From positions 1 through 39,462 of IMG/VR virus record IMGVR_UViG_3300025289_000060: a stretch of 39,462 nt of DNA. One strand, written 5' to 3'. The stretch is from a virus. Positions within the stretch are counted from its first letter, which is position 1; the number at the start of each line of letters is the position of its first letter. Below the pieces are notes generated by a model that did not search any database, had not been told where the DNA came from, and saw nothing but the letters and a program-made list of their open reading frames with translations. The translations under genes and the position numbers were made by a program. Shown here in pieces: positions 11,574 through 24,250 of this stretch.

Positions 11574-12440
11574 ATGGTAACTCTGGATGACCTCATCGTT
11601 GCAGGGCAGGGTAGGCGTTACCAAGGCTATTTGGCTCTTGTCTGCCCGTTTCACAAGTCCTACCCGATCAGGCAGTCGCTCTTTGCGTGGCAGGATGGGT
11701 GGTTCCGTTGTGCCTCCTGTGGCAAGTCCGGCAGGAACGAGTATCTGCTGGACATCCTGCGGGGCCGTCCCGTGCGCATCTCGGTCGATGAAGTCACGGA
11801 TTGGGTGCCTCCGACCCTCCCAACCGACCCTGCCGAGATCGACAAATTCTGTGGGAAGGCACATGAAACCCTAATCAACAACCCCGCCTTCGCCTGGTAC
11901 TACCAGATGCGGGGGGTGGAGGATATGATTGAAATCGCCCTGCTGGGGTGGTATAATGGATGGGCTACAATTCCCGTCCGATCCCAAGAAGGTTCCATCC
12001 AAGGTGTCATTCTCCGAGCGGGACCCCATATCGAGCAAGCCAACGACGGTGTTCGGTTTCACCAGCCCCGAGGGCAGAAGGGCATGATGTACTGCCCGAA
12101 TTGGGGCCTGCTGAACAGGAGCAATAAGGCCGCAATCGTGTTTGGCATCTTCGACGCTCTGGCTGTGGCCTCTATTGGCATCCCCGTCGTTACCCCAACC
12201 TCGGGCAAGGATTCCTTCAAGCCAAAGTGGTTGGATGATGTATGGCGCGGATCGGTGATCATCGTACCGGACAAGAAGGAGGAGGCGACCGCCTACAAAC
12301 TTCACAAGGACCTGTCTCTGTTCGGTATCCACAACGACGTTCTGCTTCTAGACTATCCGAGCGGCACCAAAGATCCGGCGGATTACCTCCGCATGGGGAA
12401 ACGCTCCCAGTTAGAAAAGGTTCTGCATACCTATATCTAG
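11574..12440 (+). CDS. DnaG-like primase-related protein with altered TOPRIM site
   Basis: 288 residues. A CHC2-type zinc finger is seen as CPFH (24-27) and CASCGKSG (46-53). The C-terminal half aligns with TOPRIM: IVFGIFDALAVA at 188-199, VIIVPDKKEEA at 228-238 and DYPSGTKDPADYL. In active DnaG/gp4-type TOPRIM domains the first motif is E-G and the second D-x-D; here they are F-G and D-K-K, so two metal-binding acids are missing. It may be an inactive accessory or prime in another way. No strong SD; starts 3 bases after the ligase stop. The DnaB-like helicase follows nearby. Confidence 0.75.
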   Translation: MVTLDDLIVAGQGRRYQGYLALVCPFHKSYPIRQSLFAWQDGWFRCASCGKSGRNEYLLDILRGRPVRISVDEVTDWVPPTLPTDPAEIDKFCGKAHETLINNPAFAWYYQMRGVEDMIEIALLGWYNGWATIPVRSQEGSIQGVILRAGPHIEQANDGVRFHQPRGQKGMMYCPNWGLLNRSNKAAIVFGIFDALAVASIGIPVVTPTSGKDSFKPKWLDDVWRGSVIIVPDKKEEATAYKLHKDLSLFGIHNDVLLLDYPSGTKDPADYLRMGKRSQLEKVLHTYI

Positions 12441-21388: not shown

Positions 21389-21458
21389 GGCAGGGCGCGG
21401 CCCGGCAAGGTAGGGCAGGGCATGGCTCGGCCTGGCTTGGCGTGGCGAGGCAGGGTAC
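21389..21458 (+). repeat. GGCNN pentamer array 1, 14 units
   Basis: Reads as 14 uninterrupted five-base units, GGCAG GGCGC GGCCC GGCAA and so on, ending GGCAG GGTAC. Twelve units start GGC, two start GGT. The last two bases of each unit vary freely. It fills the gap between two genes almost exactly: it starts three bases after a stop codon and ends four bases before the next likely ATG. GG every five bases on the plus strand is also a two-tier G-quadruplex pattern. Confidence 0.95.
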
Positions 21459-21462
21459 AAGG

Positions 21463-22008
21463 ATGCTAGAAGTTCTTAGTCGTCTAAAGTTTGAAGATTC
21501 AAAGAAGATCGACTGGCTACCTGGGTCGCGAGTCAAGATGTTTATGGCGTTGGCTCCCGACATCAAAGCCTGGGCTGTTGGGATCGATCCCGGCAGGAAC
21601 TTTGGGATTGCGATCGCCACCAAGGGCTACGTTGTTGTCTATGATGGAAGCCTCCCACAGCAACCAGAAAAATGGAAGTATGGTGTCTTGGCGATCGATC
21701 TGGTCAAGCGCATCTTCTCGGGACCTCCCCAGAACTTCCAAGTGGGGATTGTTGAGGGTCCGGCGTTCAATGCCCGATATGGTCAAGTTTCGTTGGCCGA
21801 GGCGAGATTCGGATTCCTGTACGGACTGATCGAAGTTGGGGTCAAAGATGTTCGAGTAGCGGCCCCGGCTAGCATTCGAAAGGTCGTCTTGGGAGGAGGT
21901 CGATATCCGGTACCGTATGAAACTTGGCCCAGATTGTCCACAAATGGAACAGATGCGTTGCTAGCCCTAGGATTTGCCCTCTTGACAATGGACAAATCCG
22001 GCGTATAA
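21463..22008 (+). CDS. RuvC-like (RNase H fold) Holliday junction resolvase candidate
   Basis: 181 residues from ATG 21463, though the ribosome site there is poor and ATG 21538 is an alternative; the frame stays open through the upstream array, which I regard as non-coding. VGIDPGRNFGIAIA (39-52) supplies D42, IVEGPAF (96-102) supplies E98, and TNGTDALLALGFAL (160-173) supplies D164, the acidic triad of RuvC-type nucleases. Probably cuts branched DNA before packaging or during recombination. The stop codon TAA is part of the TATAAT box of the next promoter. Confidence 0.7.
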   Translation: MLEVLSRLKFEDSKKIDWLPGSRVKMFMALAPDIKAWAVGIDPGRNFGIAIATKGYVVVYDGSLPQQPEKWKYGVLAIDLVKRIFSGPPQNFQVGIVEGPAFNARYGQVSLAEARFGFLYGLIEVGVKDVRVAAPASIRKVVLGGGRYPVPYETWPRLSTNGTDALLALGFALLTMDKSGV

Positions 22009-22009
22009 T
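21982..22009 (+). promoter_or_regulatory. Perfect sigma70 consensus promoter
   Basis: TTGACA (21982-21987), 16-base spacer, TATAAT (22004-22009), both boxes perfect matches. Predicted start is near 22016, two bases before the first pentamer of array 2, so the transcript would have about 120 bases of GGCNN repeat at its 5' end before the phosphoesterase gene. The -10 box overlaps the upstream stop codon. Confidence 0.8.
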
Positions 22010-22017
22010 GGATTCAT

Positions 22018-22139
22018 GGCGCGGCTAGGCGCGGCTAGGCGAGGCAAGGCTGGGCAGGGCGAGGTACGTGGCGAGGCCAGGCAAGGCGAGGCAGGGCGTG
22101 GCGAGGCAAGGCGAGGCATGGCGGGGCGAGGCGAGGTAC
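22018..22139 (+). repeat. GGCNN pentamer array 2, 24 units in two blocks
   Basis: Block one, 22018-22067, has 10 units ending GGTAC; two bases GT; block two, 22070-22139, has 14 units ending GGTAC. All other units begin GGC. The phase shift of two bases happens only after GGTAC. The array lies between a perfect promoter and the metallophosphoesterase gene and forms most of the untranslated leader. The 14-unit block has the same length as array 1. Confidence 0.95.
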
Positions 22140-22167
22140 AGGGGTAGACTAACAACAAGGAGAGAAA

Positions 22168-22953
22168 ATGACCAAAAGGGTCTTGATTCTAAGCGATACG
22201 CACTGTGGGCACGAGGTTGGGCTGACACCGCCCAAATGGAATCCGCAATACCCAGAGTTTCCGGCCCTCCAGAAGATGTCGGACTATCGAGCCTACCTCT
22301 GGGACAAGTTCAAGTCAGAGTTGGACGAGTGGCGGCCCTTTGACGTTTGCATCGCCGACGGGGATATGATCGATGGTCGCGGTGAACGCATAGGTGGGAC
22401 AGAGGAAATCTTCGTCGACCGAGTACAGCAAGTCGAGATGGCAGCAGAAATCCTCGAAACCGTGAGGGCAAAGGAGTTGTATGTCGCTCGGGGTACGGAT
22501 TATCACGTCGGACCCTATGAGAACTTCGAGGACGGTATTGGTAAGTTGGTCGACGTAACGCGCACCGGAGATGTCCTGAACATCGACATCGCAGGTTTGA
22601 TGTTCAATGTGCGCCACCACGTTGGGGGTTCACAAGTACCCCACGGTAGAGCCACAGCGCTCCTCCGGGATTGGTCATGGAACATTATCTGGTCTTCAAT
22701 GCAGGAGTTTCCAAAGGCAGATGTGATTATCCGTGCCCATGTCCATTACCACCTGGCAGTAGATCAGCCCGGTTCGCTGGCGATGACCACGCCCGGACTC
22801 CAAGGCTACGGAACCCGTTATGGAGAACGCCGCCTGAGCGGCCTTATCCACTTTGGGTTCATTCTGTTCGATATCAATAGCAAGGAGGACTTTGCATGGA
22901 CGAAACGTATCTTCCCCTTCCCCAGACCCCCGGTCTCCGTATCCGAAGCATAA
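22168..22953 (+). CDS. Calcineurin-like metallophosphoesterase
   Basis: 261 residues, AAGGAG site upstream. Metal-binding motifs are SDTHCGH (9-15, D-x-H), DGDMIDG (64-70, GD), RGTDYH (108-113, in place of GNHD/E), RHH (149-151) and AHVHYH (190-195, GHxH-like). The fold hydrolyses phosphomonoesters or diesters, in some phages on nucleic acids. The GTDYH variation means substrate cannot be predicted. It is transcribed from the promoter at 21982 through array 2. Confidence 0.8.
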   Translation: MTKRVLILSDTHCGHEVGLTPPKWNPQYPEFPALQKMSDYRAYLWDKFKSELDEWRPFDVCIADGDMIDGRGERIGGTEEIFVDRVQQVEMAAEILETVRAKELYVARGTDYHVGPYENFEDGIGKLVDVTRTGDVLNIDIAGLMFNVRHHVGGSQVPHGRATALLRDWSWNIIWSSMQEFPKADVIIRAHVHYHLAVDQPGSLAMTTPGLQGYGTRYGERRLSGLIHFGFILFDINSKEDFAWTKRIFPFPRPPVSVSEA

Positions 22954-23312
22954 CGAAGACCGGATCAGAATTGCCATACTCTCTGGATAGCCTAGATGAG
23001 ATTATGGCAGCCGCCGCAATAGAAAAGAAGGAAAAGGAGGAGCACGATGTTGCAGGTCTTGAAAGTACGACTCTGTGGGGCGTCCCAGATGATTCTGCAC
23101 AACGGCCAAACAGCCAATCCCTTGAACAAGTTCGCCAAGCAACTGAAAGCCGTCAGCAGGAAGAAGAACAAGACGGAGGACGACATGGAGGAGCTGGCGA
23201 AGATCGAATTCTTGGCCGGCTGGTACCAGAATCCGGCGGGGGCGTACACACTCCCAGCCCACAACATCGAGGCAACGATGCTGGAGGGAGCAAAGAAGAA
23301 CAAGAACGGTAA
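22896..23312 (+). CDS. Possible overlapping small gene, 138 aa
   Basis: ATG 22896 has an AGGAGG site eight bases upstream, inside the phosphoesterase gene. The first 50 residues (MDETYLPLPQTPGLRIRS to EKKEKEEHDV) look protein-like; the rest overlaps the next gene in another frame for 266 bases and reads as a low-complexity polar sequence. It may be a real overprinted gene, a short protein whose tail is unselected, or an N-terminal part joined to the next gene by a shift at the A-rich 23021-23035 stretch. Confidence 0.35.
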   Translation: MDETYLPLPQTPGLRIRSITKTGSELPYSLDSLDEIMAAAAIEKKEKEEHDVAGLESTTLWGVPDDSAQRPNSQSLEQVRQATESRQQEEEQDGGRHGGAGEDRILGRLVPESGGGVHTPSPQHRGNDAGGSKEEQER

Positions 23313-23622
23313 GCTCATCCAGAGTGGGGCGTTCGTTGTCGATGACCCGATCCTAGTCTTTCCTGGATCGAATCTGAACCCAGAGGAGCTGTGGAAGCGG
23401 GGCGAGAATGCCCTGATGGTCTCCGTTCGAGTTCAGCGCAATCGAGTTATGAGAACTAGGCCGACCGTCCCTCAAGGATGGACAACGGAGGTGGAGATCA
23501 GGTTCGATCCCCAAATCATCGAACCCCCGGCGATTGTCCAGGCTCTTGAGGTTGCCGGTTTGGAGCGGGGCTTGGGGGATTGGCGACCTAAGTATGGTCG
23601 GTTTCTCGTAGAGCAAGTCTAG
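23047..23622 (+). CDS. Hypothetical protein, 191 aa, last gene of the plus block
   Basis: AAGGAGG upstream. Begins MLQVLKVRLCGASQMILHNGQTANPLNKFAK and ends GLGDWRPKYGRFLVEQV. The fold appears alpha/beta with strong conserved-looking pieces (LPAHNIEATMLEGAKK, DDPILVFPG, RVQRNRVMRTRPTVP), and the final GDWRP..GRF element is one I associate with an uncharacterised phage family. No catalytic motif. The stop codon overlaps the first GGTAC of array 3. Confidence 0.7.
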   Translation: MLQVLKVRLCGASQMILHNGQTANPLNKFAKQLKAVSRKKNKTEDDMEELAKIEFLAGWYQNPAGAYTLPAHNIEATMLEGAKKNKNGKLIQSGAFVVDDPILVFPGSNLNPEELWKRGENALMVSVRVQRNRVMRTRPTVPQGWTTEVEIRFDPQIIEPPAIVQALEVAGLERGLGDWRPKYGRFLVEQV

Positions 23623-23874
23623 GTACGCGGCCCGGCGCGGCAAGGCTCGGCAGGGCAGGGCATGGCGAGGCGAGGTACGTGGCAAGGTGCGGCGTGGCTT
23701 GGCTGGGCGCGGCTTGGCGAGGCAGGGCGAGGTACGAGGCGTGGCGTGGCTAGGCTTGGCCGGGAGAGGCTTGGCAAGGCCCGGCAGGGCGAGGCGAGGC
23801 GAGGTACGTGGCAAGGCTTGGCCTGGTGGGGCGTGGCTCGGCGAGGTGAGGCAAGGCTGGGCGAGGCAAGGTAA
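23622..23874 (+). repeat. GGCNN pentamer array 3, 49 units in four blocks
   Basis: A leading GGTAC (23622-23626), then blocks 23629-23678 (10 units), 23681-23735 (11), 23738-23807 (14) and 23810-23874 (13). The first three blocks end GGTAC, the last ends GGTAA. Blocks are separated by GC, GT, GA and GT. Five internal units deviate (GGTGC, GGAGA, GGTGG, GGTGA and the final GGTAA). The array begins on the last base of a stop codon and runs to six bases before the terminator hairpin, so it is the 3' untranslated end of the plus-strand unit. Confidence 0.95.
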
Positions 23875-23880
23875 ACAAAA

Positions 23881-23899
23881 GGCCCGAATGACTCGGGCC
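23881..23899 (-). terminator. Intrinsic terminator for the minus-strand unit
   Basis: GGCCCGA (23881-23887) pairs with TCGGGCC (23893-23899) around ATGAC. On the minus strand the hairpin is followed by TTTTGTTT, the U-rich tail of an intrinsic terminator. It would stop transcripts coming from the virion genes before array 3. Confidence 0.75.
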
Positions 23900-23912
23900 A
23901 CAATAGATGTGG

Positions 23913-23936
23913 AAGGGCGGCCCTAGAGCCGCCCTT
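23913..23936. terminator. Strong hairpin, probable bidirectional terminator
   Basis: AAGGGCGGC (23913-23921) pairs perfectly with GCCGCCCTT (23928-23936) over nine bases around CCTAGA. On the plus strand it is followed by CTTCGTT. It lies 5 bases from the stop of the minus-strand holin candidate, between the convergent units, and probably works with the neighbouring hairpin. Confidence 0.7.
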
Positions 23937-23941
23937 CTTCG

Positions 23942-24250
23942 TTACCCTTCGTTGATTTCGCTTGACCGAACCGAGATACCCATCCGCTCGGCCAGGGGCT
24001 TCACGGCATATCCATATCCGAGCGTAGCGGTCAGGATTGCCGAGATGGCCACGACAACGGCGTTGACGTAGACTTCAGACTCCGGGACGAACTGGATCAG
24101 GAACCACATGGCCGCAAAGCCAAGGGCTCCACCCAAGGCCCCAAGCCGAAGGTGCGTCTCTTGTTCAACCCCCAAAAACTTCAAACTCTGAACGAACAGA
24201 ATGACGAACGCGCCGATCTGAACACCCGCAAGAGCAATTGACAGATCCAT
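23942..24250 (-). CDS. Holin candidate, three membrane spans
   Basis: 102 residues with three hydrophobic helices (about 6-23, 36-54 and 61-83) and a charged C-terminus (ERMGISVRSSEINEG), the general layout of class I holins. Last gene of the virion block and preceded by its own promoter-like sequence. Holins form pores that release the lysin at the end of infection. The identified lysin is on the opposite strand 21 kb away, so the link is inference. Confidence 0.6.
   Translation of the reverse strand: MDLSIALAGVQIGAFVILFVQSLKFLGVEQETHLRLGALGGALGFAAMWFLIQFVPESEVYVNAVVVAISAILTATLGYGYAVKPLAERMGISVRSSEINEG

Follow-up and report, generated by a model that had tools for sequence, protein, structure and literature searches.

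A 2026 preprint introduced VIPR (Viral Interference Programmable Repeat), a system encoded by phages that combines an ancestral RAMP protein, Vipr, with vrRNAs. Each vrRNA is made up of 9 to 16 GGY/NN repeats, and its NN pairs read double-stranded DNA while skipping one base, mostly at the wobble position (PMC13142463). Small RNA sequencing of the Escherichia phage SUSP1 revealed vrRNAs as transcripts of ~100 nt that co-purify with Vipr, and expression and co-purification were likewise shown for a P. fulva prophage; in type II VIPR, which comprises the SUSP1 and P. fulva clades, a conserved structured 3' tail follows each repeat tract (PMC13142463). The preprint distinguishes seven types and accessory genes vap1-6 (PMC13142463). 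Here we analysed a 39,462-nt stretch of viral DNA, IMG/VR record IMGVR_UViG_3300025289_000060 (the window), and conclude that region 21389-23936 is very likely a phage-encoded VIPR locus, in which a promoter most likely transcribes the second of three repeat arrays through to the third.

Pentamer arrays and vipr in the window

The locus is ordered as array 1, a RuvC-like open reading frame (ORF), the promoter, array 2, a phosphoesterase gene, a gene for a 191-amino-acid protein, array 3, hairpins and convergent minus-strand genes. Its principal features are as follows.

21389..21458, plus strand: array 1, 13 GGYNN pentamers followed by GGTAC, one predicted vrRNA guide (from the sequence)
21982..22009, plus strand: sigma70-type promoter TTGACA-N16-TATAAT, read directly from the sequence and coinciding in part with the 3' end of the preceding gene
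22018..22139, plus strand: array 2, 9 pentamers, GGTACGT, 13 pentamers and GGTAC, two guide modules (sequence, Tandem Repeats Finder), predicted vrRNAs transcribed from the promoter at 21982..22009
22168..22953, plus strand: calcineurin-like metallophosphoesterase, probable vipr accessory protein (vap), from a PF00149 match and its recurrence beside vipr
23047..23622, plus strand: vipr, 191-amino-acid RAMP (Cas7/Csm3-like) protein of the phrog_4652 family, from homology and predicted fold
23622..23874, plus strand: array 3, four guide modules of 9, 10, 13 and 12 pentamers with GGTACGN separators (sequence, Tandem Repeats Finder)

In keeping with the intergenic arrays of 9 to 16 repeats that flank vipr in VIPR systems, the three plus-strand arrays together contain seven modules of 9-13 GGYNN pentamers, and array 3 begins at the final base of the vipr stop codon. 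Within an array the modules are joined by a 7-nt GGTACGN, at which the register shifts by two. The NN pairs of array 1 read AG GC CC AA AG AG AT TC CT TT GT GA AG. No Rfam family matched the array. A near-identical twin contig of the window carries identical arrays; 8 differences between the two fall within 13 bases at 22985-22997, just 3' of the phosphoesterase gene, and 4 others are spread over 12.8 kb.

The product of 23047-23622 matched phrog_4652, a family of unknown function, with an E value of 1.6e-45, and aligned along its entire length with SUSP1 ALH47069.1 at 33% identity (E 1e-34); at 191 amino acids it corresponds to the small (~20 kDa) RAMP homologue of VIPR systems. An AlphaFold2 model of the protein reached a predicted local distance difference test score (pLDDT) of 96.8. 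When the model was searched with Foldseek, 62 matches had E values below 0.001, the closest being to Csm3 (E 2.5e-6), and the best 50 of the 62 were all CRISPR effector proteins or complexes of type III or VII. Alignment to Csm3 (6xn3_F) by VIA-align gave a Z score of 11.5 and a root-mean-square deviation of 3.8 over 155 residues. Because the AlphaFold2 model matches Csm3/Cas7 by both methods, we conclude from the predicted structure that the protein is of the RAMP fold and Cas7/Csm3-like. The locus resembles type III CRISPR Csm3/Cas7 effectors in this fold and in having a periodic RNA scaffold, but it differs in using a 5-nt GGY/NN code rather than a contiguous spacer. The region around the arrays holds only pentamer arrays with 7-nt separators, with no repeat-spacer CRISPR array at the locus, and the identical direct repeats with unique spacers that define class 1 CRISPR-Cas were not found in the region.

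The type II model, SUSP1, shares with the window a homologous Vipr, GGY/NN arrays flanking vipr and a gene adjoining vipr that in the window is a probable accessory gene. GGY repeats lie in the intergenic regions of SUSP1, and TTGACA-N16-TATACT stands upstream of its first vrRNA; the sigma70-type promoter is upstream of the first array in SUSP1 and upstream of array 2 in the window. The two loci differ in that SUSP1 has separate units, each with a structured 3' tail, whereas the seven modules of the window have bare 7-nt GGTACGN joins within an array, and in that SUSP1 carries a vap1 gene where the window carries the metallophosphoesterase.

GGYNN arrays across viruses

The identification as VIPR followed an array survey, an analysis of gene linkage and fold prediction. 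A scan for GGC occurring eight times at intervals of 5 nt found at least 120 viral stretches with such arrays. They are intergenic and on the sense strand, many beginning no more than ~20 nt after the upstream stop codon, and both flanking genes were co-directional with the array in 81 cases and both opposed in 7. As in VIPR, GGY is conserved and NN hypervariable: in the viral arrays NN is near-random, neighbouring NN pairs are uncorrelated, and the median NN entropy is 3.0 bits, compared with 0.9 bits for GGCNN repeats in cellular genomes, where the eight-GGC pattern mostly matches plain microsatellites. BLAST identified GGYNN-type arrays also in F1-type mycobacteriophages, among which array blocks have been gained or lost between otherwise near-identical flanks. 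The cellular microsatellites and this gain and loss are what would be expected if the pentamers were selectively neutral and had spread as tandem repeats through slippage or recombination. However, the retention of GGY beside near-random NN with no memory of its neighbour, the bias in strand and position, and the linkage to vipr all argue against neutral spread, which we consider extremely unlikely.

The arrays might alternatively be translated into an Arg/Gly/Ala-rich peptide, since an ATG coincides with the predicted transcription start at array 2, a 42-codon frame is open there (22016-22144), and the peptides encoded by GGCNN are alike in every frame. GGCNN repeats are, however, almost free of stops by construction, register slips are common, and the stop-making TA pairs are not placed to keep a frame open: by phase, 165 frames were open in the arrays against 163.7 +/- 2.0 after shuffling, which makes translation scarcely credible as the function of the arrays. 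Examination of array RNA structure showed no selection on NN order and no gain of G-quadruplexes.

Linkage to a protein was examined by clustering the ORFs around 125 array loci, each array counting as a hard stop. A phrog_4652 protein, the window's 23047-23622 product included, was present in 65 of the 125 loci and nearly always abutted the array. A second small family, phrog_15946 (motif EWDD..AA..YR..QAR.LI), lies beside vipr and arrays in 22 loci (for example L020 3755-4207, L106 1655-2140 and L002 3925-4380) and is a probable accessory protein.

In GGTAC-separated arrays the modules are mostly of 9-14 pentamers, within the published range of 9-16. The IMG/VR virus groups L028/L040, L252-like and L264 share the GGTACRY separator and modules mostly of this size with the window, and the L252 group has vipr beside the array, but their flanking genes are different and no perfect promoter was seen just upstream of their arrays. 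High-entropy GGCNN arrays were also observed on a few bacterial genome or metagenome-assembled genome contigs (Fibrobacteres, Patescibacteria, Desulfobulbaceae and others; L142, L148, L150, L166, L204, L209 and L238), which are possibly proviruses. In the actinophage VIPR loci of LittleE and MakoManhole, GGY arrays are interspersed with tRNA-like minihelices of ~43 nt (L269 3704-3752 and 3849-3897; L270 2984-3026 and 3101-3143). These have an acceptor-like stem, a D-loop-like GG stretch and a T-arm with GGUUCGA, are similar to minimal substrates of RNase P, and may act as signals for guide processing.

The promoter upstream of array 2

In the window, TTGACA occupies 21982-21987 and TATAAT 22004-22009, separated by a 16-nt spacer, and 8 nt lie between the end of the promoter and the first GGC of array 2 at 22018. 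The TAA stop codon of the upstream ORF (22006-22008) sits within the -10 box. The original prediction, made from the sequence alone, had described a perfect promoter just before array 2, with the first pentamer at 22018 and the stop codon inside TATAAT, and all three were found as described. The perfect match to the sigma70-type consensus occurs once in the window, whose replication genes were uninformative for host assignment. A first-order Markov model predicts 0.0068 such matches per window by chance, counting both strands, and ~1e-5 in the stretches just upstream of the window's three arrays.

Within a VIPR locus, the final coding stretch of the upstream gene could nonetheless resemble a promoter by accident, array 2 being transcribed by read-through. 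The hexamers lie partly inside the ORF, and array 2, like arrays in general, begins a few nucleotides after the upstream stop codon. Promoters with 0-1 mismatches within 70 nt upstream were found at 4 of 161 viral arrays and 1 of 400 intergenic controls (Fisher p 0.026); because of these counts, a promoter at the array occurs above chance frequency yet is not the rule, and most arrays are without one. While the lack at most arrays favours an accident, the enrichment, the low chance expectations and the promoter upstream of the first array of SUSP1 speak against it, and we regard an accidental match as unlikely. We propose instead that transcription from the sequence upstream of array 2 most likely yields the array-2 guides first, followed by the remaining operon.

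Transcription from this promoter is predicted to start at ~22016, giving a 152-nt leader up to the phosphoesterase start at 22168, 80% of which is array. The original prediction that the leader of this mRNA is almost all repeat thus holds in proportion if transcription starts there, but the array does not appear to be mainly an mRNA leader. Together with the promoter directly upstream and the general position of arrays between co-directional genes, that proportion would suit a cis-acting 5' leader controlling translation or attenuation of the phosphoesterase mRNA, for example through a TRAP-like protein that binds triplets with two bases between them. Such a role is very unlikely, as array 3 follows vipr at the 3' end of the operon with no gene after it, arrays are linked to a single protein family and not to any single regulated gene, and the linked protein is a RAMP and not TRAP. 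The other suggestion of the original prediction, that the array is a functional RNA, was right in kind: because the array matches the vrRNAs of VIPR systems, it is very probably a functional short RNA, by analogy with the SUSP1 transcripts.

Guide code, phosphoesterase partner and proposed mechanism

In a comparison for which the array data were chosen without regard to targets, the composition of NN was closest to that of codon positions 1-2 in sense, with a Kullback-Leibler divergence of 0.150 bits compared with 0.212-0.476 bits for the other registers. This result matches the prediction of the wobble-skip rule. Three observations weigh against assignment of the locus to VIPR. Searching IMG/VR for exact 8-pair cores with one skipped base from two guides yielded only chance-level extensions and no target; in the pooled loci (1.3 Mb) there was no excess at a skip of one, and no targets above shuffles; and the structured 3' tail of type II vrRNAs is absent from the window, where the next module follows GGTACGN directly. 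As its modules are without this tail, the locus was not filed as type II. Own contigs, searched for matches to their NN code with 0-3 bases skipped, showed no excess of self-targets, and none was found in the window. When the NN pairs of module 2 of array 3 were joined without skips, 18 of 22 bases matched the window at ~12211-12232 (minus strand), a match that is likely due to chance given the 383 guides tested.

The phosphoesterase matched PF00149 with an E value of 0.0023, below the cut-off. Its homologues adjoin vipr in L055, L081, L112 and five further independent contigs. A phosphoesterase-seeded scan, run independently of arrays, yielded 14 loci, 11 of which had vipr beside the phosphoesterase; arrays were present in 10 of these 11, compared with 0 of 45 unrelated background viral loci. 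With the window's twin and any loci that were seeds or duplicates set aside, vipr was present in 5 of 8 new phosphoesterase loci. Because vipr, and usually arrays, recur beside its homologues, this gene context suggests that the phosphoesterase is a probable vipr accessory gene. The bare GGTACRY separators and the metallophosphoesterase partner appear to be new relative to the VIPR description, and they may mark a subtype.

The remaining features of the locus are one ORF and two hairpins.

21463..22008, plus strand: ORF between arrays 1 and 2, RuvC-like by eye only
23881..23899, no strand assigned: hairpin GGCCCGA-N5-TCGGGCC with a TTTTGTTT tail, a terminator serving the convergent genes of the minus strand
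23913..23936, plus strand: strong hairpin (fold -22 kcal/mol, weak T tract), likely transcript end after array 3

The ORF had no Pfam or PHROG match, and its AlphaFold2 model, made without an alignment, reached a pLDDT of 38.7. The two-hairpin convergent terminator gave a match to Rfam Yfr1 below threshold (28.8 bits, cut-off 38; window 23879-23934, minus strand). An 11-of-12 sigma70 promoter, TTGACT-N18-TATAAT (24308-24279, minus strand), lies upstream of the minus-strand gene 23942-24250.

We propose that arrays 1-3 would specify seven vrRNA guides, each a module of 9-13 GGY/NN repeats, and that the promoter would drive array 2, the phosphoesterase gene, vipr and array 3 in one transcript, ending at the hairpins at ~23.9 kb. 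By analogy with SUSP1, Vipr would coat the expressed RNA, each protomer holding the GGY of one pentamer and leaving NN exposed, and successive NN pairs would read double-stranded DNA, skipping one base for each pair, in many cases the wobble base of a codon. The bound ribonucleoprotein would repress competing mobile elements, the DNA target probably being a competing virus. A bolder but fairly unlikely possibility is that the locus represents a form of VIPR whose architecture has yet to be described in detail, in which polycistronic, tail-less guide arrays under one sigma70 promoter would be cut or read at the 7-nt GGTACRY, and a metallophosphoesterase nuclease partner would cut targets rather than only silence them. 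If this were true, a viral system of this kind would go beyond silencing to the cutting of its targets.

These findings place an uncultivated virus in a newly found RNA-guided class that is proposed to predate CRISPR, and VIPR was reached here independently, through repeats and gene linkage rather than protein structure. Because the seven guides of the locus can be read, its promoter is defined, its separator is bare and an enzyme accompanies it, guide processing and target cutting would become directly testable.
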